Virus record (IMG/VR): IMGVR_UViG_3300005468_000026
Span: 1-48,406 of that record
Strand: one strand, 5' to 3'
DNA length: 48,406 bases
Origin: a virus
The notes beneath the pieces are model-generated. The model saw only the letters and a program-made list of their open reading frames with translations. It was not told the DNA's origin and did no database searches. This document shows positions 3,290-22,183 of the stretch, in pieces (position 1 is the first letter of the stretch; each line of letters opens with the position of its first letter). The translations under genes and the position numbers were made by a program.

Positions 3290-3856
3290 TTACGCGAGCG
3301 TGACGTTCCGCAGGTCGCGGACCAGCCACTTCCCGCCGTAGGCCGTGATGACCATGTTGTCCCCGATGGCGCCACCGAACGTGGCGACGTCGGTGCTCGT
3401 GCCACCGCCGTTGAAGCCGGTCGTGTTGGTGACCGTGTGCGCCTGTGCGGTCGACGACTGAATCGTCAGCTGCAGCCCGTCCTGATCGACGGCCGGGTCG
3501 GCCAAGGTCATCGCGCCCACACCGGCCTTGTTCAGGAAGATGCGGGTGTCGACGTTGGGGACCGCAATCGCTCCCGAGACGCCGTAGCTGGCGACCGGCG
3601 AGCCGGGCGGCACGTCGGCAAAATCGGCCGCCGGGCCGAAGGCCGCGTTCGCCAGCGTGTTGTGCGCGACGGCGAGCGTGCCGACCTGGCCACGTTCGAC
3701 CTTCACGACCGGCGAGGCCGAGACGTCTTGGACGGTGACGAACTCGCTATCGATCCGGATGAGTTGGCCCACAGCGATGCCGGTCGCGCTCGTCAGTTTG
3801 AGCGACGTATCGGTGGCTGTGATGGCCCCGTTTAGGGTGGTTGCAGTCAAGCTCAT
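3290..3856 (-). CDS. Virion-associated protein, decoration-like (inferred)
   Basis: This 188-residue protein is rich in Ala, Thr, Val and Gly and begins MSLTATTLNGAITATDTSLKL. The N-terminal 80 residues, with the segment GQLIRIDSEFVTVQDV followed by VERGQVGT, resemble a small beta domain common in phage proteins downstream of the capsid gene. Residues about 90-188 look like a second beta domain rich in Thr and Gly. Before the GIY-YIG gene arrived this gene would have followed the coat gene directly, a usual place for decoration or head-fibre proteins. The stop overlaps nothing; the start shares ATGA with the endonuclease stop. Confidence 0.65.
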   Translation of the reverse strand: MSLTATTLNGAITATDTSLKLTSATGIAVGQLIRIDSEFVTVQDVSASPVVKVERGQVGTLAVAHNTLANAAFGPAADFADVPPGSPVASYGVSGAIAVPNVDTRIFLNKAGVGAMTLADPAVDQDGLQLTIQSSTAQAHTVTNTTGFNGGGTSTDVATFGGAIGDNMVITAYGGKWLVRDLRNVTLA

Positions 3857-4677
3857 GTCGTGTTCTCCTCAGAAGTGTTGCACGTGAAACGTCCCGGCGC
3901 GGTGAGGTACTGCGCCTCACCGCGCTTGACGAGCGTCTTGAAGTTCTGCCGACTCAATCCGGTGGCCGTCATGGCCGCGTCGACTGAAGGGTAGGTCACG
4001 CCCTGATAGGCGATAGCCCGCATCTTCCAGAAGGTGCGGCCCTTGCGGGCCTCCGACATCTTGCGGCGCGCTTCGGCGCTCGCTGTTTTCCCCTTGTTCC
4101 ATCCGCCGAATCCGGCCGGGAGCTTGCTCGGCTCGAGATACCGAGCCAGCCCCAGCGCGAGACGACGGCGCATTTGTGTCAACGAGAGGCTGTGTGCCCG
4201 TGCGGCGAGTGCCGCGCTCGGATACGCCACGCCGTTGAATTCGACCGCGCGTTGATTCCAGCCGTGGCCCTTGCGGGTTGCTGACATCTTCGCTTTCACT
4301 TCCGGCGTGTGCTGTTTGCCGGTGATCCAGGGCGTTCGTCCAAGATGTGCGAGGCGCTGCTTCTCTCTCGTCGCCTCGGACATCGGTCCACTTCCCGGAC
4401 CACCTGGACTGAGGTTGTAGCCGTGCGGCACCAGCGAGTTGTAGAGCACGATCGCGGCTTTTTCCATCTCCGCGAGTTGCTTCGCTGATTCCGCACGGCC
4501 CAGTTCCGTCACTTCGAACGCGTCCCACCCGTACTCGCGAATCGCGCTGGCGAGCGGATACGTCAAACCCCTGGCTGCAAACGAGCGGTGATTCGAGAGC
4601 CGCTCGTACAGTGAACGTTTCGTCGACCCGATGTAGTTCTGACCCGTGATCCGATTTGTGATCTTGTAGACAAGCAT
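3853..4677 (-). CDS. GIY-YIG homing endonuclease with NUMOD motifs
   Basis: This 274-residue protein carries the GIY-YIG nuclease domain at residues about 1-90. It has MLVYKITNRITGQNYIGST for the GIY...YIG pair, a conserved Arg in SLYERLSNH, and the catalytic Glu in EMEKAAIVLYN. Three NUMOD3-like DNA-binding motifs follow (SEATREKQRLAHLG, TPEVKAKMSATRKG, SAEARRKMSEARKG), with two NUMOD1/helix-turn-helix-like segments (FNGVAYPSAALAARAHSLS and YQGVTYPSVDAAMTATGLS). An AGGAGG site sits five bases before the ATG. It is a free-standing mobile gene inserted directly after the major capsid gene, which is a typical homing target neighbourhood. It probably cleaves the coat region of related phages lacking it. 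Confidence 0.93.
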   Translation of the reverse strand: MLVYKITNRITGQNYIGSTKRSLYERLSNHRSFAARGLTYPLASAIREYGWDAFEVTELGRAESAKQLAEMEKAAIVLYNSLVPHGYNLSPGGPGSGPMSEATREKQRLAHLGRTPWITGKQHTPEVKAKMSATRKGHGWNQRAVEFNGVAYPSAALAARAHSLSLTQMRRRLALGLARYLEPSKLPAGFGGWNKGKTASAEARRKMSEARKGRTFWKMRAIAYQGVTYPSVDAAMTATGLSRQNFKTLVKRGEAQYLTAPGRFTCNTSEENTT

Positions 4678-4761: not shown

Positions 4762-6090
4762 TTACCCTTGGACTCGACAGGCCAATTCAGGCCGTAAAGT
4801 GCTCCACCCAAAGAGCACGTCGAAGCGGCAAGGAAAGCGGTCGAGATTTATGTCGTAAGCCCTAACCATCCGAATGCTGATCCCGAGCTGCTTGTCCGAC
4901 ACGCGCGCGGCCATGTCGACCCCACGCGGCAGCGGCAGATCGGCCGTCACGAGTGTGAAGGCATCCTTGTGCATCGCGATGCCCTGCGGGCTGACCGCGC
5001 CAGTCGCACCGGCGACCGTGATCGCCGCGTTGTCGGCCGGCGATCCGCTGACGGTCTGACCCGACCCGCTGGTGATGATCGAGGGGCTGATCGAGATCGT
5101 CATGTTGCCGGTCGTGTCGCTGATGGTCTGCGTCACGACGAAGTTCTGCAGCTGGTTGGTCGACTGCCGGCTCTGCGGGTTGATCGAGAAGACGCCGGCC
5201 ATCGTGAACGTGTCGCCGCGGTTGAGCGTCGAGGCGCCCGAGGTCCAGCCGTCGGTGATGATGCTCGATCCGGTCTGCGAGGCCCCGTTGACCAGCGGCG
5301 TGCCGCCGTACGCCCCGTAGGTGTGGGTCTGGACGTTCTGGTCCATCGAGAACTTGAACCCGGCCGTCCGGCCCATCGTGCCGCTGGCGTACTGCTCGGC
5401 GATGGACGATGCCTGCTGGAAGAGGCCCTTCAGGGCATCGACCAGCGTGGCTTCCATCAGCGGGCTGATCGTGACCGACCGCTGTCCGTCGTTGGGCGCC
5501 GCGGAGTTGTTCAACTGCACGCCAGCCAGGAGGTAGGTCAGGAGCGCGTTGGGCGTGGTGCCCGGCGTGCCGACCGCCTGATAGATGTCCACGTAGCGGG
5601 CCATCCCCGCGGCATCGATCCGGTTAGCCACGGCGGCGATCGCAGGGGCAATGAATCGATCCGAGAAGTCATCGATCGACAGCGCCAGGTCCTGCGAACT
5701 GAACGCCAGATCGACCCCAGCCTGGGTATCGAGCGTGACGGGCACCTGCGTTTCGACGGCATCCTGCAGGTCGAGTGCCTGGCCCGTCCTGGTCGTGTAC
5801 CGTGGCGGTTTGCGGACGTTGACGACCGTACCGATCTTCGCCCCGTCGACGCCGAACTTGTCGTCGAACTGGCGATTGACCTGCTTGGTAAACGTCAGGT
5901 TGTTTTCGAGTACGCGCAACGCTTCGCGCGTGATCATCGTGATCGTCAGGAGCGCATTGCCGGCCAGCAGGACGCCGGACGGATGCGACCACTGATTGAG
6001 CAGATGACCGACCAAGAGAGCGATGAGCAGCGCGAGGCCCTGCATCAGGGCTTCTCGCACCGTCCAGCGAGGGAAGGGACGAGCAATCAT
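4762..6090 (-). CDS. Major capsid protein, P22 coat family, with hydrophobic N-terminal extension
   Basis: This is a 442-residue P22 gp5-type coat protein. The family core starts at AGNALLTITMITREALRVL and ends with LRPELACRVQG, with long Thr/Ser/Gly-rich beta regions between. The chosen ATG (6088-6090) has an AGAGG site nine bases upstream. Use of this start puts about 45 residues ahead of the usual family start. They include a charged MIARPFPRW, then a membrane-helix-like GLALLIALLVGHLL. No ATG, GTG or TTG lies at the usual family start itself, where the codons read GCC GGC AAT. The next internal ATG (MITREAL) has no ribosome site and would cut into the core. Coat subunits normally have no hydrophobic leader, so this one is odd. 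Confidence 0.9.
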   Translation of the reverse strand: MIARPFPRWTVREALMQGLALLIALLVGHLLNQWSHPSGVLLAGNALLTITMITREALRVLENNLTFTKQVNRQFDDKFGVDGAKIGTVVNVRKPPRYTTRTGQALDLQDAVETQVPVTLDTQAGVDLAFSSQDLALSIDDFSDRFIAPAIAAVANRIDAAGMARYVDIYQAVGTPGTTPNALLTYLLAGVQLNNSAAPNDGQRSVTISPLMEATLVDALKGLFQQASSIAEQYASGTMGRTAGFKFSMDQNVQTHTYGAYGGTPLVNGASQTGSSIITDGWTSGASTLNRGDTFTMAGVFSINPQSRQSTNQLQNFVVTQTISDTTGNMTISISPSIITSGSGQTVSGSPADNAAITVAGATGAVSPQGIAMHKDAFTLVTADLPLPRGVDMAARVSDKQLGISIRMVRAYDINLDRFPCRFDVLFGWSTLRPELACRVQG

Positions 6091-6289
6091 GGGAACACAC
6101 CTCTTGCCGAGCAAGAAAAGCCACGAGACCATCGCACCGTCTCAGGTGTGTCGCGGCCGTCACGACAAGAACGTCGGCCAAACAGCGAGGACCGAATTGC
6201 AGGTGGCGTCCTCGTTCCCACCGGCACGGGCCGCAGCCCGCGAGGGGTCGTACACGCACGGCGTCAGCGCGCCGCGTAAAGTCGTTCGC

Positions 6290-7462
6290 CTAGCGTGTTG
6301 CCACGCCGCGTTTCTTCGAGTCGCGCCACGCGCGGAATTCCTCCGCCGGCAGGGCCGCGAGCTCGTCATCGGTCATCTGGTCGGGCGTCTTCGCCGTGCG
6401 CGCACCGCTCTGACCCACACGCGGGGCCGGCGGCGGCGCGGATCCGACCGGAATGGGGACCGGCGGCGCAGCAGCGCGCGCCGGCGGCGGCGCGGCAGCA
6501 GGCGCCCCGGGCGCGGTCGCTGGCGGCGCGTCGTCCGCGGGCCCGCCAAAGAGTCGGCCCTCCTCGAACTTGCCTTCGAGCCGACCGAGCGCGGCAATAC
6601 AGCGCGCGGGTGGCAGGCGCGAGATCTTCTCGGCCTCTTCAGGATGCGTGGCCAGGAAGTACAGGACTTCCATCCCGGCCTCACTGTCCTGCAGGTACTC
6701 GGTCATGTACTGGGGGGTTTCGATCGCGCCGTTCTTCTGGAGGGCAGCGTCGAAGTCCGGATGCTGCTCGCGGGCGGCTTTCAGACGCGTCTCGATCGCA
6801 CTCTTGCGCCGGTCGAAGACCTCACGCTCTGATCGCTCAGTCTCGCGCTTGGCTTCTTCGGCAGCTCGGACGACCAGCGCGCGGCGGACCGTATTTTCTG
6901 AGGTCCACTTCGTCAGTTCCTTCACGTACTGGTTGAAGTCCTCGAAGTCGGCTTCCTTCGGCTCGGGCTTTTCGGCCCCAAGCGCAGCCAGTTCGGCACT
7001 GGCGGGCGTGGACGGCGTCTCGGGCACGGCCGGCGGGGGTGCCGCTGGAGGCGTCGCGGCCGGCGCTGGGGCCGGTGGCTCGGCACGCGTTTTCAACTCG
7101 CGCTCGAGTCGTTGCCGCTCGCGCTGCTCGTGGTAGAGCTCGCGGGACAATTCCTCGATGCGCTCTTTGGCACGTGACCGACGCTTGTTCAGCGTCTTGG
7201 CGGCCGCCGTCGCGGCTTCCTGAGAGACGGGCTCGTCGTCGCCCTCATCGCCCTCATCCTCGGCGTCGGCGTCAGCCGGCTGTGTGGGCGTCGCCGCAGG
7301 CGTCGCGGGAGGGCTGCCCGCTGGCGGCGTCTCAGCCGGCGTCTCCGGCGTCGCGGCCGCCGGGGCGGCTGGGACGGCCGGCTCGGCGGGTGGCAAACCC
7401 GCCGCGGCGCGGACCTCGTCCAAACTGTCGGTCGTCGAATCGATTCGGATCTCGTTGGGCAC
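6290..7462 (-). CDS. Probable scaffolding protein
   Basis: This 390-residue protein starts at a GTG. Residues about 20-90 are low-complexity Ala/Pro/Thr followed by an acidic patch. Residues about 90-125 are a charged coiled coil (KRRSRAKERIEELSREL). A further Ala/Pro linker and a helical central domain (about 170-310) follow, and the tail is Pro-rich and then charged. This layout and the position between portal and coat genes fit a phage scaffolding protein, the internal template for P22-type proheads. A short basic helical C-terminus (EFRAWRDSKKRG) could be the coat-binding end, as in P22 gp8. Identification rests on composition and synteny, not on a firm sequence motif. Confidence 0.72.
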   Translation of the reverse strand: MPNEIRIDSTTDSLDEVRAAAGLPPAEPAVPAAPAAATPETPAETPPAGSPPATPAATPTQPADADAEDEGDEGDDEPVSQEAATAAAKTLNKRRSRAKERIEELSRELYHEQRERQRLERELKTRAEPPAPAPAATPPAAPPPAVPETPSTPASAELAALGAEKPEPKEADFEDFNQYVKELTKWTSENTVRRALVVRAAEEAKRETERSEREVFDRRKSAIETRLKAAREQHPDFDAALQKNGAIETPQYMTEYLQDSEAGMEVLYFLATHPEEAEKISRLPPARCIAALGRLEGKFEEGRLFGGPADDAPPATAPGAPAAAPPPARAAAPPVPIPVGSAPPPAPRVGQSGARTAKTPDQMTDDELAALPAEEFRAWRDSKKRGVATR

Positions 7463-7688: not shown

Positions 7689-10010
7689 TCAGGCCCCTGG
7701 TTCGGCTGGGGGTTCGGCCTGCCGCGCCAGGGTCTCATGGGCCGCGCGGTGCGCCGCCATCCCGAGCTCGTGGGCGCGGCCTTGCTGCGCCTGGTCGACC
7801 TCGTGGGCGTGGTTAATCGCCTTGTCGCGTGTCTCGATGATGTGGTCCAGGAGCCGCTGAATGTGCGCGACGGTCGCCTTCAATTGCACGATCTCGGCTT
7901 CGGCGTGCTGCTTCTCCTTGTCGCGAATGATGTCGGTCGACAGTTTGGCGGCTGCGATCCGTTCGTCGGAGGCGATCGTTTCGCTTGCGATCCGCTCGCG
8001 CGAGTCGGTCTCAAGCTTCTTGGCCTGCAGGCCCGATTCGGCCTCTTGGAGCTGCTGTTGAAGCTCCTTGACCAGACCTTCCAACTGCTGCATCTGCTGT
8101 TGCGCCTCGGGCGGAATCGGCGCCGGGCCGCCGTCCTTCTCGGGGTCCAGGAACTGGGGCGGCACGGCTTTCTTGAGGCGCGCCGCGGCCGCTTGGGCCC
8201 CAGGCCAATCCATGTTGCCCACGATGATGTCGCCCAAAATAGGAAACGCGGCCGGGTAGACCTGCACGAACTGATTGAGCGCCTCCAAGGCTTCCTTCCG
8301 CTTGGTCGGCATGGCTGGCCCGGTCGAGACAGTCACGTCGTATCGTCCGGCGCCCAGGTTGTAAATCCCCTGGACCCCTTCCGGTAAAGTCTCGGGCACT
8401 TCCGGCTGGTCGCGGTGGACCATGACCGTCCGCGGCGTCTCGTCCTCGCCGATGATCCGCATGACGCGGAGCGCGTCGTAGTAGTGCGGGATGAGGTCGA
8501 CCAGATACCGGCCCGAACACCGGATCGACCGGCCCATGTTGTCCTGGAAGTTCGACGTGGCGATCTCGCCCTGCTGTTGGAGAGCTGAAATCGCTTTACC
8601 CGACTGGCTGCTCGACGATCGCTTGCCCAGCGACTCCTGGTACAGGCCCATGATGGCCTGCAAATCGTTCTCGTCCTGCTGAATCGCGGTCACAATGCCG
8701 CCGATCGGTGGCTCGGACGTGATCCGTTGCGGAAGCGGCACGACCTTGCCGTCGAGCGTGAAGGGGCGGACGGTCAGATAGGGGCGGCGCCGGCGGTTGG
8801 CTTCCTTCCATTCGGTCTGATGCCCGTCGAACTGGCCCTCGTACCCGACCCACTGGCTGAGCGGCGCGAGGCTGAGCGCCTCGGCCAGCATCGTCTTCTC
8901 CCAGTTGAGCAGCCGCTGCGTGTCTTTCGCGTCGCGCGTCATGCCCCGCAGATCGACCTTGCCATCGATGTCGATCTCGTCGCCAATGACGGGGATGATC
9001 GGGATCCACCGGCCGGGCCACTCCTTACCGTCGGTCCGATCGGCGTTGCCCTCGATGATGCCCAGACCGTTGATGAGCGCCCACTTGACGCGGCGCGCGT
9101 CGACCTGGCGCGAGGTCCGAATCGTGAAGCCCACCTTCTGGCGCCCCGAGTCAGCCGGCGGCGCTGGCAACCGGTCGAGGGCCTGCTGGAGGTTCGCCCG
9201 CTCCTGGTCGGTGACCACTTCCTCATCGCCGCTGTGGGTCCAGCGAATCAGGTGGATCGTCTCCTTGTACATCTCGACGAACCAGTACATGGCGACCCGG
9301 ACCTTGCCGGTCGGCATCCAATCGGGCGCCTGGTTGCCGATCGCCTCGAAGTCGTGCAGGCTACTGTCGGTGCCGAGCTCGCCGTAGCGGGCCAGATACT
9401 CTTCCTTCGGGATGTCCTCCACCTCGAAGGCGTAGTTCATGTCCGATCCGTCGAGCTCGGTATGCGCCGGATCGACGTAGACCGAGAAACAATTCCGCAC
9501 GCGCTTGATGCGGAGGTCCTGCGTGAAGCTGCGATCGTGGGAGTACTCGGCGATGATCTTCCAATAGCCCCGGCCCACCGTCGTCTGGTCGTCGCCGGCG
9601 GTCGCGTACGCCGCCTGAGCATCGCTCTGGTCTTCAATGTGCCGGATGATGCCCTGATAGACCTCCGCGGTCTTGACGTCGGCCTGGTCGTCGTTGGGCA
9701 GCACCTTGATCGCGATCTGGGCCTGCCGCATCTGGTTGGTCACCAGGCGGATGAACTGCCGGATCCGGTTCACCGTGATCATCGGCCGGTCGTCCTGCCG
9801 ACGCTCGGTGATGGCGCGCGGCTCCCACTGATCGGAGGCCGCGAACCGCTTGTCATCCAGTTGGTTCTGTCGGAGCTCGCTCTCAGCCGCGACCACGGTC
9901 TGGAAGCGCGAGCGAGCGGTCGACATGAACTTGGCGACCTTGTCCCGCTGGGCTTGCGCCTGCGGCGTGTCCTCGACGCGCTCCTGGGCGACAATCACCA
10001 GGTCAGACAC
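7689..10010 (-). CDS. Portal protein, P22 portal type
   Basis: This is a 773-residue portal protein, the dodecameric ring through which DNA is packaged and ejected. The GTG at 10010-10008 is chosen because GGAGG lies six bases upstream; the longer frame overlaps the previous gene. Sequence hallmarks of the P22-type group include SDQWEPRAITERRQDDRPM, TVNRIRQFIRLVTNQMRQ, IRHIEDQSDAQAAY and GRGYWKI. The C-terminal 120 residues form a Gln/Glu/Lys-rich coiled coil (QQMQQLEGLVKELQQQLQ), comparable to the P22 portal barrel. It overlaps the preceding small gene by eight bases. Confidence 0.92.
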   Translation of the reverse strand: MSDLVIVAQERVEDTPQAQAQRDKVAKFMSTARSRFQTVVAAESELRQNQLDDKRFAASDQWEPRAITERRQDDRPMITVNRIRQFIRLVTNQMRQAQIAIKVLPNDDQADVKTAEVYQGIIRHIEDQSDAQAAYATAGDDQTTVGRGYWKIIAEYSHDRSFTQDLRIKRVRNCFSVYVDPAHTELDGSDMNYAFEVEDIPKEEYLARYGELGTDSSLHDFEAIGNQAPDWMPTGKVRVAMYWFVEMYKETIHLIRWTHSGDEEVVTDQERANLQQALDRLPAPPADSGRQKVGFTIRTSRQVDARRVKWALINGLGIIEGNADRTDGKEWPGRWIPIIPVIGDEIDIDGKVDLRGMTRDAKDTQRLLNWEKTMLAEALSLAPLSQWVGYEGQFDGHQTEWKEANRRRRPYLTVRPFTLDGKVVPLPQRITSEPPIGGIVTAIQQDENDLQAIMGLYQESLGKRSSSSQSGKAISALQQQGEIATSNFQDNMGRSIRCSGRYLVDLIPHYYDALRVMRIIGEDETPRTVMVHRDQPEVPETLPEGVQGIYNLGAGRYDVTVSTGPAMPTKRKEALEALNQFVQVYPAAFPILGDIIVGNMDWPGAQAAAARLKKAVPPQFLDPEKDGGPAPIPPEAQQQMQQLEGLVKELQQQLQEAESGLQAKKLETDSRERIASETIASDERIAAAKLSTDIIRDKEKQHAEAEIVQLKATVAHIQRLLDHIIETRDKAINHAHEVDQAQQGRAHELGMAAHRAAHETLARQAEPPAEPGA

Positions 10011-10266
10011 GCCCGACCTCCGGAAGTGCCGGCCAGCCGCCACGCTCGACGATTCGTTTGAGCGCCGCGTAGACGTGTTCGTAGTCGGACCGCCAGAGGT
10101 CCTGATTGGCGCACTGTTCCTGGGCGATCCGCACGAAGGCGTCCTCGCCACCGGCCACGATGGTCACGACCAGATGCCACGGTTGCAGCCGGAACGATTC
10201 AAAGAGTGCCCGTGCGAAGTACTCCCGCGACCCTTGGTCGACTTGCTGTAACGGGGTCAGCGGCAT
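10003..10266 (-). CDS. Small protein of unknown function upstream of portal
   Basis: This 87-residue protein begins MPLTPLQQVDQGSREYF. Its start shares a TGATG junction with the gene before it and its end overlaps the portal start. It is a compact, probably alpha/beta soluble protein with aromatic-rich segments such as FRLQPWHLVVTI and NQDLWRSDYEHVYAAL. I do not recognise it. The tight coupling to the portal gene suggests a head or packaging role. Confidence 0.72.
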   Translation of the reverse strand: MPLTPLQQVDQGSREYFARALFESFRLQPWHLVVTIVAGGEDAFVRIAQEQCANQDLWRSDYEHVYAALKRIVERGGWPALPEVGRV

Positions 10267-11574: not shown

Positions 11575-11937
11575 CTACTTGATCACGAGGTTCTGCGACT
11601 TGCCCGGCACGACGACGTTCACTGTCAGCGTCGCAGAAGGCGAATTGCCCCACGCGTTCGTCGCCACGACGGAGAAGGTGTGCGTCCCGGCCGTCGTGAA
11701 TGTCACCGCGACGCTGCACTTGGTCGGATCAGGCGTGCAGGGTGGCACGCTCGTGACCGCCCCGTCGAAGGTCATCGTGTAACCTGAGACGCCTGCCGTG
11801 GTCGCGTCGGGTTGATCCCACTGCAGATTCTTCGTGGCCGGGAGCGACTGCGCGCGCACCTTCACAATCGGCGCAAGGGCGCTCGCGCACGCGACGAAGA
11901 CAGCCGTGACGAGAATCAGAATCGTGCGCTTCGACAT
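11575..11937 (-). CDS. Secreted Ig/fibronectin-like beta-sandwich protein
   Basis: This 120-residue protein has a Sec-type signal peptide (MSKRTILILVTAVFVACASA, likely cleaved before or near VRAQ at about residue 29). One fibronectin-III or Ig-like domain follows, with NLQWDQPDATTAGVSGYTM at the start and GTHTFSVVATNAWGNSPSATLTV at the end. Two Cys (PPCTPDPTKCSV) could form a disulfide, which suits export. Phage Ig-like domains usually decorate virions and bind carbohydrate; the signal peptide makes this one unusual. The next two virion-type genes also have signal peptides. Confidence 0.72.
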   Translation of the reverse strand: MSKRTILILVTAVFVACASALAPIVKVRAQSLPATKNLQWDQPDATTAGVSGYTMTFDGAVTSVPPCTPDPTKCSVAVTFTTAGTHTFSVVATNAWGNSPSATLTVNVVVPGKSQNLVIK

Positions 11938-11941
11938 GTGA

Positions 11942-13660
11942 TTACCTCAACTTGAAGACGTGGACGATCGGCTTCGGCCCGGTCGTATCGGCGCCGTTCG
12001 TGCTGAAATAGACGCACGACCCGCCGCTCTGCCCAGGGCATGGACTGCTGCCCCACGCGGCGCTGATGATGCGCCGTCCTCGACTATTTGACGGCCCAAC
12101 GAACGCCATGATTGACGACGAGGACGAGAGCGGCCATTCGGCATACGGGGCAACCTGCCACGGTTGCAAGGCCCCGGTTTTCACCGAGAGCAAATCATTC
12201 ACGTCGTAGGCGTAGAGCGTTTCCACGTAGGGATAACTGTGCGTGCCCTTGTCGCTCGACTCCGGGTCGTAGCAGTAGAAATCAGGACTCACGCGCCAAA
12301 CCTGAGACGTGAGATTGCCTGGGAACGCCGCCGTCGCCGTAACCGTGACATAGGCGGTCGCCGTCCCACTGTTCCCGCTGCCGGTGATGCGCGCCACGCC
12401 AGGATGCCCACCGCCTGCCGTGAAAAAGTTCGGCGTGGTCTGGTTGTCTAGTTCAATGAACCGCTGATCGGTCGCCCACTGCGCCGTGTTCTGGTTCGGC
12501 AGCGTGATCTGCGTCCCGGCCGAGTTGGTCGAAGCATTCGAGCCTGAACCTAGTCCTCCAGTTGACGCGGGCTTCGGCGTCGTCTGCGAACTCTCCCCAT
12601 CCCCGTAGCACCAGCCGGTGAGGCCCTTGGTGCCGGTTGTAATCACGGTGCGATAGCCTGCCGGGAAGAACCCGCCACGTAGCCAGTCCTCTTGTGAGAA
12701 GGCGATGATGTAGCTCGTCGAACCGCCGTGTCGAGGATCGGTGATCGTGTAGGTCGGGACCGTCACGCCGTCCTGTACTTCGTTGGTGGCGATACAGGTC
12801 GGACACGACCCGTCCCAATCCCCTGCGCCGAGTCGTTGATGCCCGGTCGGATATTCGCTGAGTGCCGTGACCGTGATGAGCGTGCTCGTCGCTGGTTGTG
12901 TCGCGAGCGTGTCGGCATCAATGCACCACACGGACGGCCCGGCCGACGCCGACCCGATGATGCTCTGCGCGCCAGTCCCTGAGAGCACCTTGCAGCCGAG
13001 CGAGGTCTGATAGCCGCTCGGGACCGAGAACATGAAATGCCCGGCGATGATGCGCGCACACGTTGAGGAGTTCGGTGTGTAGGCTCCGGTCGCGCTACTC
13101 GCATTCGAGAAGGTCATCGACGACACCCAAAACGCCTGCGGGATGTCGTTACAGCTGGCATACCGGAGTTCGCTCGCGCCGATGAAGTTCGATCCGAACG
13201 GGACGCCTGTGGACCACGGCCGCACGCCACCACCACTCCATGTCGTGTTCACGATGCCATTCGAGAGGTCCACGAAGTTCTGCGCCATCGTGCCGCTGGT
13301 CAGCCCCGCTAAGCCAACACTCGTGGGGTCATTGATCGTGGCAGGAACACACACTTCAGCGAAGGTGCCCTTATTGGCCGTCGTGCCGCTAGAGTTTGTC
13401 CCGCCTAAGACAATCGACTGGCCCGAGGCGCATCCGCCATTCGAGACGACCGCCCCCGCCATTGGTGCATCCGAATCATTGAACGAATCTGTTCCGTTTC
13501 CGGCTGGCAGACGGAACGCCCCGATGTAGGTCGAATCAGTCGGCCATTGGACGCGCGGAAGGCCGTTCAGCGTCATGCGGAGCCGCAAACTCTGCGGTGC
13601 CATTGGCGCAGGCGCAAGCGAAAGGCCACCGACGAGGAGGGCGAGAAGCGCAGCCTTCAT
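11942..13660 (-). CDS. Large exported adhesin- or tailspike-like protein
   Basis: This 572-residue protein has an N-terminal hydrophobic signal (MKAALLALLVGGLSLAPAP). A long Ser/Thr/Gly/aromatic-rich beta-type protein follows, with the segment DSTYIGAFRLPAG near residue 40. It contains many Cys in spaced pairs (for example CPTC near residue 285, and CPGQSGGSC near the end), as expected of a disulfide-bonded extracytoplasmic protein. Start and tail-fibre stop share ATGA. It sits where a tailspike or receptor-binding protein would be, but virion proteins are normally assembled in the cytoplasm without signal peptides. No catalytic motif for a depolymerase is visible to me. Confidence 0.68.
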   Translation of the reverse strand: MKAALLALLVGGLSLAPAPMAPQSLRLRMTLNGLPRVQWPTDSTYIGAFRLPAGNGTDSFNDSDAPMAGAVVSNGGCASGQSIVLGGTNSSGTTANKGTFAEVCVPATINDPTSVGLAGLTSGTMAQNFVDLSNGIVNTTWSGGGVRPWSTGVPFGSNFIGASELRYASCNDIPQAFWVSSMTFSNASSATGAYTPNSSTCARIIAGHFMFSVPSGYQTSLGCKVLSGTGAQSIIGSASAGPSVWCIDADTLATQPATSTLITVTALSEYPTGHQRLGAGDWDGSCPTCIATNEVQDGVTVPTYTITDPRHGGSTSYIIAFSQEDWLRGGFFPAGYRTVITTGTKGLTGWCYGDGESSQTTPKPASTGGLGSGSNASTNSAGTQITLPNQNTAQWATDQRFIELDNQTTPNFFTAGGGHPGVARITGSGNSGTATAYVTVTATAAFPGNLTSQVWRVSPDFYCYDPESSDKGTHSYPYVETLYAYDVNDLLSVKTGALQPWQVAPYAEWPLSSSSSIMAFVGPSNSRGRRIISAAWGSSPCPGQSGGSCVYFSTNGADTTGPKPIVHVFKLR

Positions 13661-16062
13661 TGCTCAATCACCCACACGGTAAAGACTTGCGCTGCGTTGC
13701 CCACATCTACGTTGAACGAGATGAAATCGCCTGCGGCTAGACTCGCGTGGACACCAATCGTCGTGCGTGTGCTGGCGGTCATGGTTGAAGCAGCCGTGAC
13801 TTCTCGATTGGTGGCCGACGTTCCCCCGCTCTCCACGACCATTGCGTAGACAGTGCGGTTCGTGCCATCCGCGACGAAATAGGCGGGTGATCCGTTAGCG
13901 TCCATCGCGCCGTTCAGCCACATGACCGTCATGCACGTCTTGCTCGCGCTGCATGTGAAGGCTGTGTTGTTGCCAGACGACGGTCCAAGGACACGTCCTT
14001 GCTTTAATCCGTTCGTCGCGTCGAACTCAAAGATGCTGATGCTGACGTTCAGACTCACCGATCCGCTGGTGATATTGGTGTTGATGGCGATGGCCTCGCC
14101 AGCCTCAAACATGATCGGAATCGCTGGGGTGCTCGCCACAGAGCCTGCCATCGCAATCGCACTTTGATTCCGGTAGTACGTTCCAGAGACTTTCACCTCA
14201 AAGTAGTAGTTCACCGTCCCGCTGTTGTTGTTATAGAGCGATTGGCCTGACACGATGCAGCGTTTCCCAGTGCCACAGGTGTAGATGTCCGTGTCGGTCG
14301 AGGTCGTGATGGCCGACACGCGGCCAGATTTGAAGGCGCATCCAGTCAGCGGCACGCCATACGTGCAGTTGGTCGTCGTCGCGACCGTTTGCGTGGCGTC
14401 CTGCAACGTCACGACTCGCGCGGCGGTCGCCACGCCTGTGATCTGGAAATTATTTGTCCCCGGCGTGCCGCTCGTGCCAGCAAGCCACAGGTCTTTCCAA
14501 GGCTTCGTAGCTGAGCCGAAATCCAACCCTGCTGCTGAGGATGGAATCAGCGCCGCATTGATAGCGACCGATGCCAGATTCGACAGCGCCGTGTTCGCTC
14601 CACTCGCGCCGCCCGACGTGCCGCACGAAAAGGCATTCGTGCTTTGCGTGTAATTGAGATGGTTGCCGCCCGTGTCCGTGCAGTCGGGCAGCGTTTTGGC
14701 AACCCAGGCCGTGCCTGAATTCACCAGCACCTGATCATCGGAGGCTTGCGTCAGGTTGGCGAAGGGCAACAGGCCCGTGACGCCGTTGCTCAAATCTACT
14801 TGTGCCCACGCGGGGTTGTTTGACGTGCCGGTGTTCGCCAGATAGCGCGTGGCGGTCGTGTTCTTGTTGAGGAGCGCGAAGGCCGTCGAGGACGTTGCGT
14901 AGATAATGTCGCCCTGCGCGGGCGTCCCGGTGATCGACGGAAACGAATTCACGTTCACGCCGCAGTCCACAAACTGCTTGCCGGTCGTCCCGCTCGTGCA
15001 GGCGAAGTCGGTGTCGGTCCAGGTGCCGGACGACGCCATGAGATTGCCGGTCGTCGGCACGGTGACGTTCGTCGCGCCCGTGCTCGTCAGCGTGATGGAA
15101 TTCGCGCCCGACGTGACGAGTGAGGAACCATCTGCCAGCGTCAACGTGGCGCTACTCGCCGGGGCCGTGATCGTGACCTTGTTGACCGAGGTCGCGGTCG
15201 CCACGCCAATGTTCGGAGTCGTGAGCGACGGCGACGTGGCGAAGACCGCCGCTCCACTGCCAGTTTCGTCAGTCAAGGCCGCGGCGAGGTTGGCGCTCGA
15301 TGGCGTCGCGAGAAATGTCGCGACGTTCGTCCCAAGGCCGCTGATGCCGGTGCTCACCGGCAGGCCCGTTGCGTTCGTCAGGACTGCGGCCGATGGCGTG
15401 CCGAGCGCCGGAGTCACCAGAACCGGGCTCGTGCCGAAGACAAGCAACCCCGAGCCGGTTTCGTCGCTGATGACGCCTGCGAGCTGCGCGCTGGTCGTCG
15501 CGGCAAACTGCTGCAGGCCCGTTCCGGTGACGCCGCACGTAGCACAGGCAATGGTCCCGGTGGTGGTAATAGTGCCGCCGGTGATCGGGCCGGTCGTGCC
15601 GACCGACGTGACGGTACCGCCAGTGCCTCCGCCACCGACGCCTATCTGTTGACCCGCCGGCAGGACCGGGTCCGCGGCCTGGACACTGACGGTCGCCGTC
15701 CCCGACGTGTAGGTGGAGAACCGAACCCGGAAGATGGCCAGGCCGCCCACCCCGCCGGCAAAGGCCCCGTTACTGGTCGCGGTCGTCACCTGGGTCGTAC
15801 CGCCGATCGCGACCATGTTCATCGCGACAAAGGTCCGGGTATCGACCGACCCCTCGAAGGTCAGCGTGCCCGACCAGGTGCCGGTGATCTGGACCCCGAC
15901 CGTCCCCAAGCCGGCGACCGACAAGCTGATGCAGCCGGTTCCAGGGCACGTGGCAGAACTCAGATCCTGCTGATCACGCGGCGATGGTTGAGCATGGGCA
16001 AGAGCGGGGAGAATCGCGAGGAGGCCGCAGAGCGTGGCGAGACGTACGCGAGACAGGACCAT
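13657..16062 (-). CDS. Tail fibre-like protein with tandem repeats and a signal peptide
   Basis: This 801-residue protein starts at an ATG with GGGAGGGG seven bases upstream. Residues 1-25 form a textbook Sec signal ending AHAQ. The body contains the fibre-type repeat DETGSGxLVFxTSPxLxTPxLG at about residues 200-290 in at least two copies (around ISDETGSG and LTDETGSG). Low-complexity Thr/Ser/Ala segments follow, then a Cys-containing C-terminal receptor-like region. Repeats of this type are common in phage tail fibres. A cleavable signal on a fibre is unexpected and is discussed in the findings. Confidence 0.8.
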   Translation of the reverse strand: MVLSRVRLATLCGLLAILPALAHAQPSPRDQQDLSSATCPGTGCISLSVAGLGTVGVQITGTWSGTLTFEGSVDTRTFVAMNMVAIGGTTQVTTATSNGAFAGGVGGLAIFRVRFSTYTSGTATVSVQAADPVLPAGQQIGVGGGGTGGTVTSVGTTGPITGGTITTTGTIACATCGVTGTGLQQFAATTSAQLAGVISDETGSGLLVFGTSPVLVTPALGTPSAAVLTNATGLPVSTGISGLGTNVATFLATPSSANLAAALTDETGSGAAVFATSPSLTTPNIGVATATSVNKVTITAPASSATLTLADGSSLVTSGANSITLTSTGATNVTVPTTGNLMASSGTWTDTDFACTSGTTGKQFVDCGVNVNSFPSITGTPAQGDIIYATSSTAFALLNKNTTATRYLANTGTSNNPAWAQVDLSNGVTGLLPFANLTQASDDQVLVNSGTAWVAKTLPDCTDTGGNHLNYTQSTNAFSCGTSGGASGANTALSNLASVAINAALIPSSAAGLDFGSATKPWKDLWLAGTSGTPGTNNFQITGVATAARVVTLQDATQTVATTTNCTYGVPLTGCAFKSGRVSAITTSTDTDIYTCGTGKRCIVSGQSLYNNNSGTVNYYFEVKVSGTYYRNQSAIAMAGSVASTPAIPIMFEAGEAIAINTNITSGSVSLNVSISIFEFDATNGLKQGRVLGPSSGNNTAFTCSASKTCMTVMWLNGAMDANGSPAYFVADGTNRTVYAMVVESGGTSATNREVTAASTMTASTRTTIGVHASLAAGDFISFNVDVGNAAQVFTVWVIEQ

Positions 16063-16349: not shown

Positions 16350-16754
16350 CTATCCGACGCGGTACCGCATCGGTTTGCGGACATGCGCAACGGCGCCGAT
16401 TCTAGCGCCTTCCTGAGCGAAGGCCGAGCCATAGGCGCGGTCAACGCCCTTGGCGAAGGTCAGATTGTTCTCAAGCACACGCAGCGCCTCCTTCGTGATC
16501 ATGTCGATCGTGAGGAAGCGATTCCCTGCCGCGGCTTCGTACGCCTCGAGGCCAGCACGGTCGATCGAATCGGCGAGGGCTTTGACAGTTGCGTCGAGGT
16601 CACGGCGAATGCCAGCGTCGCCAAGGTCAACGATCATCTTGCGGCTTGGCACCCAGAGCGCCTTCTCAGGATCAAGCTCGAGCGCGCCGACACCAACAGC
16701 CGCCGCCCCGATGGCGCCAAAGCCGAGGAGTCTTAGAAACTGTCGTCGTTCCAT
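16350..16754 (-). CDS. Twin-arginine-like signal fused to P22-type coat N-terminal arm
   Basis: This protein has 134 residues. Residues 1-22 are a Tat-like signal: RRQFLRLL followed by the hydrophobic GFGAIGAAAVGVGAL. Next comes a LDPEKALWVPSRK linker, shared with the protein at 21557-22183, and a helical stretch. From AGN at about residue 75 it matches the start of the major capsid protein: MIT-x-EALRVLENNLTF and VRKP-x-RY are the same, and by hand I count 36 identities in 56 positions. It stops (TAG) where the coat protein continues. In the shared 12-residue run EALRVLENNLTF, 9 codons differ between the two genes, so this is an old, selected paralogue. Function is unknown; membrane tethering or export of a coat arm is inferred. 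Confidence 0.85.
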   Translation of the reverse strand: MERRQFLRLLGFGAIGAAAVGVGALELDPEKALWVPSRKMIVDLGDAGIRRDLDATVKALADSIDRAGLEAYEAAAGNRFLTIDMITKEALRVLENNLTFAKGVDRAYGSAFAQEGARIGAVAHVRKPMRYRVG

Positions 16755-16891
16755 CGGTGTGTCGAAGGCGTGACCAGTCTACCGAGGAGCAGCACGTAGA
16801 GGCCAGCGGACACAACCGCCAGGACGATCCAGCGATCGGTCGATGAGGCGAGGCATGCGCGGCCGATGTAGGCGAGCAGGTCGAGCGTCAT
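16733..16891 (-). CDS. 52-residue single-span membrane protein
   Basis: This protein begins MTLDLLAYIGRACLAS and has one strong membrane helix at about residues 21-40 (WIVLAVVSAGLYVLLLGRLV), followed by a short polar tail. It starts in an ATGA overlap with the coat C-tail paralogue and runs 22 bases into the coat N-arm paralogue, so the three are translated together. It could anchor or partner these two exported proteins, or be a small holin-like protein. No family recognised. Confidence 0.65.
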   Translation of the reverse strand: MTLDLLAYIGRACLASSTDRWIVLAVVSAGLYVLLLGRLVTPSTHRWNDDSF

Positions 16892-17124
16892 ACCTGGACG
16901 CGACAGGCGAGCTCCGGCCGGATGGCGGCCGTTCCGTAGAGCACATCGAGACGAGAGACGTGAAGGGTGCCGCTGAACTCGTACTGCCGGAGGAACCTGA
17001 CCGACAGATCCGCGCCAGGCAGTAGGGACGCCTTTTGGCGGACCGGCGGTGCCGGCACGTGCGGCGCCAACGCCGCGGCGAGCGGCGCGACCACCAGGGC
17101 GTAAAGGAAGGATCGACGCTTCAT
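16888..17124 (-). CDS. Signal-bearing paralogue of the coat C-terminal tail
   Basis: This protein has 78 residues. The N-terminus MKRRSFLYALVVAPL is a Tat-like (KRRSFL) or strong Sec-like signal, with hydrophobic residues to about 21 and a Pro/Ala-rich stretch after it. From about residue 36 it parallels the end of the major capsid protein: coat LGISIRMVRAYD versus LSVRFLRQYE here, coat FDVLFG versus LDVLYG, and an identical RPELACRVQ at the end. In that nine-residue run five codons differ. Start overlaps the zinc-ribbon gene by ATGA and stop overlaps the membrane peptide by ATGA. Together with 16350-16754 it looks like the two ends of a coat protein, each given its own export signal. Confidence 0.82.
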   Translation of the reverse strand: MKRRSFLYALVVAPLAAALAPHVPAPPVRQKASLLPGADLSVRFLRQYEFSGTLHVSRLDVLYGTAAIRPELACRVQV

Positions 17125-17372
17125 ACCTGATGTAGAACGCTCGAGACGCCTTTCCACCCACACCAGCACTCCACGGGGAGATCGGCCGTGGGAGTCTCGC
17201 GAGCATTCGACGGGAAGAGAATCGCCCGACCGCATTTCGGGCAATGGGGCGATGTCTGGCTGAGCGCCCGCTCGGGCTGCGATCCATGCGTGGATCCAGG
17301 CGTGGCGACCACGCCAGCGGCGACAGGGACCGCGACCGCATCGAGCCGACGAAACAACTCGCGGCGGTTCAC
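17121..17372 (-). CDS. Tat-like N-terminus plus zinc ribbon
   Basis: This 83-residue protein starts at a GTG that forms GTGA with the previous stop. It begins VNRRELFRRLDAVAVPVAAGVV, an Arg-Arg motif followed by a moderately hydrophobic stretch, which is weaker than the other two RR-FL signals. The C-terminal part has CPKCGRAILFPS and, about 25 residues later, CWCGWKG, a four-Cys zinc ribbon. If exported, a metal-binding, prefolded domain would be a sensible Tat cargo; this is inference. A cytoplasmic zinc-ribbon protein is the alternative. Confidence 0.65.
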   Translation of the reverse strand: MNRRELFRRLDAVAVPVAAGVVATPGSTHGSQPERALSQTSPHCPKCGRAILFPSNARETPTADLPVECWCGWKGVSSVLHQV

Positions 17373-18366: not shown

Positions 18367-20076
18367 TCAGCGCATCCACCCAAGTCCGCTCCGCTCGCCC
18401 ATGTCGTAGATGAGCGTTTCCTGCGGTTCGACGGGCAGCGGCTCGGTGATCATCCGCGACAAGCCGGAACGTACCAAGTAGCGCGTGTTGTGCACCACCG
18501 CGCCATTGTGAACGACGAAGGCTGACGCGCCAGGAACTGTGAGGCAATAGACATCAGCCCGTCCGGCTGGCACGACCGACACGCACGAGAGCACCGCAGC
18601 GTCTCGAGCAGGACTTTGTCGGATGGTAACGACTCGCCACAAAACTGCGGCCGCAGCCCAAGCACACGCGTTCCTCATTGTCCACACCAGACGCGCGACG
18701 AGCGGCGGCCCGGCAGTTCGCTGAGCAGAATTTTGTCTGGTTGTTGTCGACCCCGTTGAATCGCTTGCCGCAACTGGAATGCGCGCACACCATCGGCCGA
18801 CGCTTATGAAGAAGCCTCTGAGTCGCCTGATAGTGCTTCTGGTGCCAGCGCCGGCCGTTGGCGCTGCCATGCCAGACGATCGCAGCGGCGCGGGCCGCTG
18901 CGGGAAATGGTCGCTTGGGACGGCTGCGCTGGTGGTCGGAAATATGTTTCGATCCCAGTTTGGCCTCCAAGTTCCAGACGTTGTTGTTGGCGGAATTCCC
19001 ATCCTTGTGATGCACGTGATGTCCGAATGGAATCGGTCCGTAGGCGGCCACATAGACGGCCTGATGGAGAGAGACGCCACCACGGCGGAAATAGCGTCCG
19101 CACAGGTGATAGCGAACGCCTTGGAACATCTGGCAGGTCGCTGAAAGTACCTGTACAAAAAGCGTTTCCATTGGACGCGCTGCGTTATCCCATTATAAAC
19201 GGGCGCACCCCTAAGGGCATCAGCTCGGACCCAGCCAGTCGGCGTTAAGAACGGATGGTCTGGCGTGCACGTCACGACGCTTCCGTCGCTGAAGCGCACA
19301 TCCACAATCGGCGAGTTGATGATTGTCCGACGCGCCCCAAGGAATGTCGCCCATACCCCTTCCCTGGTCAAAATCCGGCCGCGAGTCCCTACGAGACTCG
19401 CGATCGGCACGATGCCGTCAGGCGTCACGACACCGGTGCTTCCAATGACACACGCATCGAGGAGGTGATCATTCGATTTTACGACCCGATGCTTGTCATC
19501 GCGCCGGTAGAGCCGAAACTCCGCGAACCACGCTTGGCAGCTCGCGAAGACCTTGAGCTTGCCTTCGCTCAGCCGATTGTAGACGTCGTAGATGCCGGTC
19601 TCGACGGCCTTGTCTGGCAGCTCGAGGTTGAACCCGTGCCGACGGTAGAGCGAGATGAACTGCGTCCGGTCCTCGTCGATGACGTCGGCCGCATCACCCA
19701 CACCTGGGATCCACGCGCCGCGTGCGCGCAGCGCCTCGGCGTGTACGGCGATCTCAGCCTGGGCCCGTTTGTAGACGCTGTAGATGTAGAGCACCTGGCT
19801 CTCGGCATCGAGCGCGCCCCAGACGGCCGCCGTCGTGCCCGAGAGCGCCGTGTCCAAGCCGAAACCGCGGCGGTAGTGCTTGGGGATCGGGAAGTCCTCG
19901 ACGCGGACGCCGCTCTCAGGGAACGGGTAGATCGCGCCGGACCCCAGCTGCGGGATGCCGCGCGTGCGCGCGTCGAGCTGATACTTCGGGTACGACGCGG
20001 CGAGCTCGGCCTTGGCCGTCTCATCCAGATGCGGCGCCGAGTCTTGCCACGTCGCGCCGATGACAAGCCTACTCAC
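18367..20076 (-). CDS. Terminase large subunit, nuclease domain, interrupted by an intein
   Basis: This 569-residue frame starts at GTG with GGAAGGAG five bases upstream. Extein residues 1-208 and 531-569 form the RNase H-like packaging nuclease. They include VIGATWQDSAPHLDE, DARTRGIPQLGSGAIYP, the metal-binding Asp in GFGLDTALSG, and DHLLDA joined after splicing to TRYLVRSGL. The intein sits exactly inside this last nuclease motif, so no active nuclease forms without splicing. The ATPase half is a separate gene (20315-21115) with another gene between them. Both halves are needed for headful packaging at the portal. Confidence 0.88.
   Translation of the reverse strand: MSRLVIGATWQDSAPHLDETAKAELAASYPKYQLDARTRGIPQLGSGAIYPFPESGVRVEDFPIPKHYRRGFGLDTALSGTTAAVWGALDAESQVLYIYSVYKRAQAEIAVHAEALRARGAWIPGVGDAADVIDEDRTQFISLYRRHGFNLELPDKAVETGIYDVYNRLSEGKLKVFASCQAWFAEFRLYRRDDKHRVVKSNDHLLDACVIGSTGVVTPDGIVPIASLVGTRGRILTREGVWATFLGARRTIINSPIVDVRFSDGSVVTCTPDHPFLTPTGWVRADALRGAPVYNGITQRVQWKRFLYRYFQRPARCSKAFAITCADAISAVVASLSIRPSMWPPTDRFHSDITCITRMGIPPTTTSGTWRPNWDRNIFPTTSAAVPSDHFPQRPAPLRSSGMAAPTAGAGTRSTIRRLRGFFISVGRWCARIPVAASDSTGSTTTRQNSAQRTAGPPLVARLVWTMRNACAWAAAAVLWRVVTIRQSPARDAAVLSCVSVVPAGRADVYCLTVPGASAFVVHNGAVVHNTRYLVRSGLSRMITEPLPVEPQETLIYDMGERSGLGWMR
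18487..19452 (-). other. Intein in terminase nuclease gene (322 codons)
   Basis: The frame shows all four splicing blocks. Block A starts with Cys (CVIGSTGVVTPDG), block B has TPDHPFLTPTGWV, block F is DVYCLTVPGASAF, and block G is NGAVVHN, followed by Thr as the first extein residue. Cys1, the block B His, the penultimate His and the final Asn are all present, so splicing chemistry looks intact. Between blocks B and F the same-frame peptide is Arg/Pro/Ser-rich and shows no domain, because a separate HNH gene occupies the other frame there. Confidence 0.87.
18554..19171 (-). CDS. HNH homing endonuclease nested out of frame inside the intein
   Basis: This 205-residue protein is encoded in a different frame from the intein that surrounds it. 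It has an AP2/HNH-style N-terminus (VRYHLCGRYFRRGGVSLHQAVY). The HNH core reads HHVHHKDGNSANNNVWNLEA. Two C4 zinc modules follow (CAHSSCGKRF...FCSANC and CLGCGRSF...CSRRC). Its frame has a TAA eight codons before the ATG and ends just ahead of intein block F. No strong ribosome site is visible. It is a typical phage homing enzyme that probably mobilises the intein; nesting out of frame is unusual. Confidence 0.85.
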   Translation of the reverse strand: METLFVQVLSATCQMFQGVRYHLCGRYFRRGGVSLHQAVYVAAYGPIPFGHHVHHKDGNSANNNVWNLEAKLGSKHISDHQRSRPKRPFPAAARAAAIVWHGSANGRRWHQKHYQATQRLLHKRRPMVCAHSSCGKRFNGVDNNQTKFCSANCRAAARRASGVDNEERVCLGCGRSFVASRYHPTKSCSRRCGALVRVGRASRTG

Positions 20077-20318
20077 GCGTGCTCCTTCCAGACCGGCGCG
20101 GGACACAGGCCGCGGCCAGCGACCGAGGCGAGTGCGCGGCGCGGCGGGACCGCCGGCGTCGCGGAGGTCGTCGGCACGTCTTCGCCGTTCGGTTCGATCT
20201 TCCGATACAGCGTCACGTAGCCACTCTTAATGGCCGCAACCGGAATGACGCGCGCCTCGCGACGCCCATCGAGGCGCTCGAGCAGAATGACGGTCTCAAT
20301 CGGTGTCTTCAGCGTCAC
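20073..20318 (-). CDS. 81-residue protein inserted between the two terminase halves
   Basis: The protein begins VTLKTPIETVILLERLDG from a GTG in GTGA overlap with the ATPase stop. It ends in GTGA overlap with the nuclease start. Residues 1-40 look like a small beta domain (REARVIPVAAIKSGYVTLYRK); the rest is Pro/Ala-rich. It has no similarity I can see to the terminase linker it replaces. It could bridge the two terminase proteins, or be a remnant of the event that split the gene. Confidence 0.68.
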   Translation of the reverse strand: MTLKTPIETVILLERLDGRREARVIPVAAIKSGYVTLYRKIEPNGEDVPTTSATPAVPPRRALASVAGRGLCPAPVWKEHA

Positions 20319-21240: not shown

Positions 21241-21563
21241 CGGTCCCGCGTCCAATTCTGGACGAGATCGCAGACGTCTGGGCCAGACGCCGACGGCAGG
21301 CAGAGGATCAGATCCGCCGGCGCCGACCTGGTCACCGTGATGCGTCGGTCACTCAGGTCCTCGATGAGCCAGTTCGTCGACGGACCTTCTGAGGTGTACG
21401 CCCTGACCACCGGCCTCGGGCCGGAGCGCGCGGCGCCGTGGACAATCGCCACATCACGGCTGACCGACATCCACTCCGAGTAGACCGACCAGCCGACACT
21501 GCCAATGACCAGGAGGCCGATGACTAAAAGGAGGACGCTGACCTGGACGTCACGGCTCACCAT
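21237..21563 (-). CDS. N-terminally anchored membrane protein
   Basis: This protein of up to 108 residues has a membrane helix at about residues 8-27 (VSVLLLVIGLLVIGSVGW). A soluble domain with RSGPRPVVRAYT and SDRRITVTRSAPADLILC follows. The ATG at 21563 gives a 7-base overlap with the previous gene; the in-frame GTG at 21560 would give the usual GTGA overlap and only drops one residue. Probably inner membrane with the soluble part outside; function unknown. Confidence 0.68.
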   Translation of the reverse strand: MVSRDVQVSVLLLVIGLLVIGSVGWSVYSEWMSVSRDVAIVHGAARSGPRPVVRAYTSEGPSTNWLIEDLSDRRITVTRSAPADLILCLPSASGPDVCDLVQNWTRDR

Positions 21564-22183
21564 GTCCAGTCCTCGTCATCCTCGATGATGTACGGGTCGC
21601 GCTCGTCGCGGATGTGGTATCGCTCCCGTCTCGCCGCGGTCTCTTGGAGGTGCCTGGTGAGCGTCCGTTCCTTGATTGCCGCGAGGTTCGGGGCATCTGT
21701 CGCGTTGAAGTTCCGCGCGATCGCGCCGTTGTCGAAGTGGAGCTCAAGGTCGCGAGCCGTGGCAAAGGCAACCGCCCCGTTCTTGACAAACTCGGCCTCG
21801 GACATCATCACGATCTGCTCAATTGTCCGGCCTCGATCTGCTGCCGCGGCTTCCGTGGCATCGTCCATCCCCGTCACGCGCCCCGACGCATCGAGTAGAT
21901 AGAGTGGCGCCGCGTCCTTGAACTTCACCCGAACCATGTGCTGTCCGGTCAGTTGAGACACCTCTTGCGGCGTCGCCTGGCGGATGTTCTTGATGGCAAT
22001 CTTGTCGTCCGGGATGAAGAACGTCTTTGTGCCGGGCGTCCAGAGCTTCCGCTCCGGGTCGAGCAGGCTGGCGCCGGCGCCGTCGAGTTGCTCGAGGTCG
22101 AGGAGGGAGCCTGCCGTCGCGGCCGCGGCGACCGCCGCGCCGCCGACAAAGAGCCGTTTGAGAAACGCGCGCCGTCCAAACAT
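21557..22183 (-). CDS. Protein with full twin-arginine signal and LDPERxLW linker
   Basis: This 208-residue protein begins MFGRRAFLKRLFVGG, the complete RRxFLK consensus. A hydrophobic, Ala-rich stretch (AAVAAAATAGSLL) follows. After a spacer comes LLDPERKLWTPGTKTFFIP, closely matching LDPEKALWVPSRK in the coat N-arm paralogue at 16350-16754. The remaining 140 residues are a soluble, mostly helical domain (RTIEQIVMMSEAEFVKNGAV) with an acidic end. The AxA-like TAG/GSL region could be a cleavage site. I do not recognise the C-terminal domain. It is the best Tat substrate candidate in the window. Confidence 0.8.
   Translation of the reverse strand: MFGRRAFLKRLFVGGAAVAAAATAGSLLDLEQLDGAGASLLDPERKLWTPGTKTFFIPDDKIAIKNIRQATPQEVSQLTGQHMVRVKFKDAAPLYLLDASGRVTGMDDATEAAAADRGRTIEQIVMMSEAEFVKNGAVAFATARDLELHFDNGAIARNFNATDAPNLAAIKERTLTRHLQETAARRERYHIRDERDPYIIEDDEDWTW

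Follow-up and report, generated by a model that had tools for sequence, protein, structure and literature searches.

The window, by which we mean the whole stretch of DNA analysed (48,406 nucleotides, IMG/VR virus record IMGVR_UViG_3300005468_000026), belongs to a phage with a P22-type coat, the predicted structure of which (pLDDT 78) resembles the coats of Sf6, CUS-3 and P22. Read along the coding strand, between TerS, P0003 and the terminase upstream and the portal, scaffold and coat genes downstream lies a cluster of four overlapping minus-strand genes, in the order RR zinc-ribbon-like ORF, P0001, membrane peptide and P0002 (Table 1). The stop of the zinc-ribbon-like ORF overlaps the start of P0001, the start of the membrane peptide overlaps the P0001 stop (ATGA) and its end overlaps the start of P0002. 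This peptide had been noticed between the two genes in a sequence-only reading of the window and was located there. A Cys-rich RR gene resembling the zinc-ribbon-like ORF (E 0.002) occurs in another phage (L071:3588-3851, equal to L157:5970-6233; L-numbers are labels of the compared phage records or contigs).

Table 1. Genes and segments of the window discussed in the text
Feature	Position	Strand	Basis
P22-type major coat, 456-aa ORF including N-terminal extension	4762..6132	-	PF11651 E 7e-44; phrog_283 E 3e-81
Hydrophobic helix, in-frame N-terminal extension of coat ORF, residues 25-47	5992..6060	-	sequence
Scaffolding protein	6290..7462	-	phrog_8865 E 2e-28
P22-like portal protein	7689..10061	-	PF16510 E 5e-161
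P0002, 134 aa, RR leader with LDPEKALWVPSRK, spine-helix piece, coat N-arm/E-loop start	16350..16754	-	BLASTP, coat HMM
P0002 coat N-arm/F-loop/E-loop start, residues 76-133 = coat HMM 2-57	16356..16529	-	BLASTP, HMM
P0002 spine-helix segment, residues 50-73 = coat HMM 101-124	16536..16607	-	phmmer pieces; HMM 0.4 bits alone (weak)
P0002 leader and LDPEKALWVPSRK module	16638..16754	-	sequence; weak PF25471 TM_PetC match
Single-span membrane peptide, 52 aa	16733..16891	-	maximum 19-residue Kyte-Doolittle 2.34
P0001, 78 aa, RR leader and coat C-tail (P-domain strands)	16888..17124	-	BLASTP, PF11651, coat HMM
P0001 coat C-tail segment, residues 40-77	16894..17007	-	BLASTP, coat HMM
P0001 leader MKRRSFLYALVVAPLAAALAPHVPA	17050..17124	-	sequence; begins the protein, coat C-tail later
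RR leader and zinc-ribbon-like ORF (CPKC...CWC), GTG start	17121..17372	-	sequence
P0003, 208 aa, third RR gene, RR leader and LDPERKLWTPGTK	21557..22183	-	passenger not coat-like (p 0.33)

The two genes that the sequence-only reading had described as leaders joined to the ends of the coat are both present as ORFs, and their similarity to the coat is real: in BLASTP alignments with the window's own coat, P0001 is identical to the C-tail at 18/38 residues (E 2e-10) and P0002 to the N-arm at 36/56 (E 1e-20). P0001 corresponds to PF11651 positions 384-420, with which phrog_283 agrees (E 2e-5), and scores 41.6 bits against the coat HMM (positions 357-398), where P0002 reaches 63.8 bits; the PF11651 scores of 17.5 bits (P0001) and 13.1 bits (P0002) are partial matches, below the curated 24-bit cut-off for a full coat. 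P0002 begins with MERRQFLRLLGFGAIGAAAVGVGALELDPEKALWVPSRK, continues with a weakly matching spine-helix-like piece that had previously been missed and ends with the N-arm, ahead of which the residues AGN are common to P0002 and the window coat. The earlier count of synonymous differences proved exact, with 9 of the 12 codons differing over EALRVLENNLTF and 5 of 9 over RPELACRVQ. On the coding strand the C-tail gene precedes the N-arm gene, so the two did not arise by a simple division of a single coat gene.

The proposed RR-type leaders were likewise borne out: KRRSFL lies near the N-terminus of P0001 (maximum 19-residue Kyte-Doolittle value 1.73) and ERRQFL in P0002 (19-residue hydropathy 1.81), each with an uncharged, moderately hydrophobic h-region. 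Leaders of the wider family described below are also RR-type and weakly hydrophobic (mean 19-residue hydropathy 1.05), and Tat signals are usually weakly hydrophobic. PF10518 (TAT_signal) is matched at E<=0.1 by 10/54 family members, P0001 and P0002 not among them, and PF25471 (TM_PetC) matches P0002 residues 1-22 with E 0.012 and 15.8 bits, below the curated 37.1. In common with Tat signal peptides (PF10518) and the uncleaved Tat anchors of Rieske type (PF25471, PetC), the family has RRxFL, a short N-region and a weakly hydrophobic h-region; it differs in having a conserved module, LDPERLLWVPGxKxIxIP, in place of a visible cleavage site, in carrying phage coat pieces rather than cofactor enzymes as passengers, and in being essentially phage-only.

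Judged by sequence, P0001 and P0002 belong to a family of phage genes in which an apparent N-terminal twin-arginine-type leader is joined to short segments of the major coat protein encoded by the same phage, and similar genes were found in dozens of other phage records. The usual layout is RRxFL, a weakly hydrophobic stretch, most often the module, and then short passengers. Viral loci with the module (LDPE..LW.PG) numbered 46 by DNA pattern and 70 by alignment search, and RR lies upstream in 64/66 module motifs, RR not having been part of the search. Among 84,980 bacterial and archaeal genomes a single matching contig was obtained, from an Acidobacteria MAG (L142), which carries a portal gene and three overlapping RR genes holding, in coat order, the N-arm, the I-domain, and FHPDAF plus the C-tail. 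Complementary pieces also occur as gene pairs in L099 and L177, and L131 has three coat motifs in scrambled order; the window pair thus recurs in kind, as pairs and a triplet, but no second copy of the pair itself was obtained: an exact search with 29 bases gave no match, and near-identical records may be hidden from it. The RR genes lie among the late head genes, close to portal and coat, and in 23/29 portal comparisons the strand is the same. As coat pieces the passengers measure 15-70 residues, about half of the module genes have no detectable coat piece, and no single passenger is common to all members, the pieces and their orders being highly varied. The term coat ends is too narrow for the family, the passengers being drawn from the N-arm/E-loop, spine helix, I-domain and C-terminal strands. 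These are parts of the P22-type coat (PF11651/phrog_283; P22, Sf6, CUS-3), from which the RR genes differ in holding only pieces, sometimes scrambled and without the A-domain, behind an RR leader.

Several members depart from this layout. In L197:12227-12754(-) the leader is joined to an N-terminal piece of a P22-type portal (phrog_156, E 3e-9), and the principle of fusion to an RR leader may therefore extend beyond the coat. L022:1268-2221(+) encodes an RR protein of 317 aa in which coat N-arm, core and C-tail occur together with a domain resembling DUF2158 (E 0.012), the normal coat lying a few kb downstream, and L129:4639-7806(-) has five RR genes close together in one contig, two of them with coat C-tail pieces. 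A second type of passenger, with a LLTDQEYALLVDRGR motif and not coat-like, is found in L098:3187, L109:6909 and L132:5081 (dN/dS about 0.5-0.6), and L123:752-1237(+) is a DPERALWVPGRKTIFLP module protein without an RR leader. For the passenger of L141 the match (E 2e-6) is to a capsid-like protein of another type (phrog_133) encoded on the same contig; in L101, L170 and L192, pieces that by eye might come from further kinds of capsid were not confirmed. Among cultured phages, P0001, P0002 and the L100 gene match coat genes only, and the bare leader gave no BLAST match there, a search in which the low-complexity filter may hide some. In the open-licence literature, subscription journals and preprints being outside this scope, we found no earlier description of the family.

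The preference for coat was assessed with an HMM trained on 114 coats, each protein being shuffled 200 times for comparison (threshold p<=0.01); the training phages overlap the test set. The threshold was reached by 27/67 module genes and 8/37 other RR genes (35/104 in all, counts that are not fully independent, some RR genes being related), compared with 2/250 control ORFs, which were small, coding-like and taken from these loci (Fisher 1e-18). The pieces descend in frame: out-of-frame translations reached p<=0.01 in 2/335 cases. A portal HMM was matched by 4/67 module and 5/37 other RR genes and a TerL HMM by 2/67 and 0/37, and among 38,880 PHROG families the major head protein was the commonest match (7/54 members; others 1-3 each). 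Chance similarity is ruled out by the shuffles, control ORFs and out-of-frame controls, and an assembly chimera by the repeated occurrence of this architecture in many contigs that are independent of one another; capture of any structural gene was likewise rejected, portal and TerL matches being few.

Passengers resemble the coat of their own phage. Tested on 23 passengers, from 20 records in which the coat is known, the coat of the same phage had a mean percentile rank of 0.185 among 64-68 coats, compared with 0.589 (sd 0.059) when owners were permuted, and none of 5000 permutations reached the observed value. Identity to the own coat is about 30-64%, so the passengers are not recent coat copies. 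The regions used are also selective: HMM positions 126-220 are nearly absent (26 cells against 394 expected, sd 98; p 5e-5, and 3e-4 with weighting for information content) and correspond, the agreement between HMM and P22 numbering being approximate only, to the A-domain of P22 gp5 (residues 128-221; PMC9965877). A full HK97 fold with A-domain is thus absent from the passengers. A match with E 0.0017 connects the I-domain RR family to 6mnt, the solved I-domain of a CUS-3-type coat.

Sequence comparison indicates that the family is kept by selection, purifying in a few orthologue pairs. The L100/L115 orthologues have dN 0.028 and dS 0.40 (dN/dS 0.07 over 133 codons), and other close pairs (L197, L200, L201) have dN/dS of 0.12-0.64, the highest value being that of L200/L201. 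The earlier proposal of selection at the protein level is supported. Compared with its own coat, the P0002 N-arm has dN 0.34 and dS 2.2; for the window pair itself selection is suggested by sequence retention, since no close orthologue of P0001 or P0002 was found and dS against the coat is saturated.

A hydrophobic segment is also present in the coat itself. In five phages (the window, L211, L098:11408, L084 and L188) the coat ORF has a hydrophobic in-frame N-terminal extension and no start codon at the usual coat site, where the window ORF has no ATG, GTG or TTG. The extension looks translated and constrained, because dN is 0.35 and dS 1.71 between L211 and L098. An extra N-terminal segment is known from HK97/T5-type coats with an N-terminal scaffold domain, from which the window coat differs in having just one hydrophobic segment as its extension and in being accompanied by a separate gene for the scaffold.

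From these features we infer membrane targeting of the RR proteins and a function there. The leader would bring the protein to the inner membrane, through the Tat translocon or as an uncleaved anchor, the passengers would present coat contact surfaces at the membrane (N-arm and spine helix, I-domain and P-domain strands), and scaffold, coat or proheads would dock there in late infection. The I-domain and P-domain strands of the coat contact neighbouring subunits. In P22 gp5, scaffold contacts are made by the N-arm residues N4, D14, E15 and E18 and by the P-domain residue R101 (PMC9965877), and since the coat regions in P0002, N-arm and spine helix, are those that touch scaffold in P22, they count in favour of docking, as do the hydrophobic extension of the coat in five phages and the location of the genes near portal and coat. 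Its weakest step is topology, in that a Tat or N-in leader would place the passenger outside the cytoplasm, and we know of no tailed phage in which capsids assemble there. Against docking are also the portal piece of L197, which means that the family is not purely coat, the shortness of the passengers, several of which may, from modelling, not fold alone (an AlphaFold model of the L100 RR protein, pLDDT 46, was left unused), the module genes without a coat piece and the dN/dS of L200/L201. That passengers mimicking the coat dock scaffold, coat or proheads at the membrane is our leading but tentative reading, to which we would give somewhat less than an even chance. The broader proposition, that in a wide group of environmental phages heads are built or docked at the inner membrane by Tat-directed mimics of their own coat, with some coats having a membrane segment, is doubtful; to our knowledge such assembly is not known for tailed phages.

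The resemblance of passengers to their own coat would also fit decoys for host immunity, whose conserved coat motifs would lure defence proteins that sense the coat away, either to the membrane or out of the cytoplasm, and short conserved motifs in scrambled order, as in L131, suit such linear-motif mimicry. CapRel senses the major capsid protein. A defence protein is reported to sense two phage proteins (PMC11578894). The genes are, however, located among late head genes rather than early counter-defence genes, and the passengers avoid the conserved A-domain; decoys are in our judgement unlikely. We know of no coat sensor in the hosts of these phages. The late location, the tracking of the own coat and the coat's own hydrophobic extension would also fit a minor virion component that enters its own shell through the coat piece and whose hydrophobic leader acts at DNA ejection, but the pieces lack a complete fold and the leader is of the RR export type and not of a known ejection-protein type, which makes this possibility rather improbable.

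Coat fragments can in principle be dominant negatives, and exported or anchored coat arms might poison the proheads of related phages, as the sequence-only reading had suggested. This block of competitors is less supported, because passengers resemble their own coat more than those of other phages, so that the phage itself would be poisoned first, and the genes lie among phage late genes, with a match in only one of the cellular genomes searched; we regard it as very unlikely. Just as slight is the chance that the genes are relics, duplicated coat-gene fragments recombined onto a common leader and without present function: the variety of pieces and orders and the lack of a passenger common to the whole family would be in keeping with this, but the low dN/dS of L100/L115, the restriction to in-frame pieces, the avoidance of the A-domain and the tight gene overlaps already disfavour it.

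Should the membrane coat mimics prove true, head assembly in tailed phages would have an unrecognised membrane or export component, and if the immune decoys were true, the RR proteins would reveal coat surfaces sensed by hosts. Either way, the RR...LDPERLLWVPG leader module provides a handle for annotating many phage genes now listed as hypothetical.

Further features were observed elsewhere in the window. Just downstream of P0002, three consecutive minus-strand ORFs (11575-11937, 11942-13660 and 13657-16062) begin with apparent classical Sec signal peptides (e.g. ...ILPALAHAQ); the two large ones gave no match in Pfam and PHROG searches, and tail-fibre-like repeats were seen by eye in the largest. 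An intein lies within the terminase large subunit (18367-20106(-), PF14890, E 2e-7), an HNH-like stretch was noticed by eye in an ORF in another frame overlapping the same subunit (18554-19171), and a GIY-YIG/NUMOD3 homing-endonuclease-like gene, 3853-4677(-), directly follows the coat gene.
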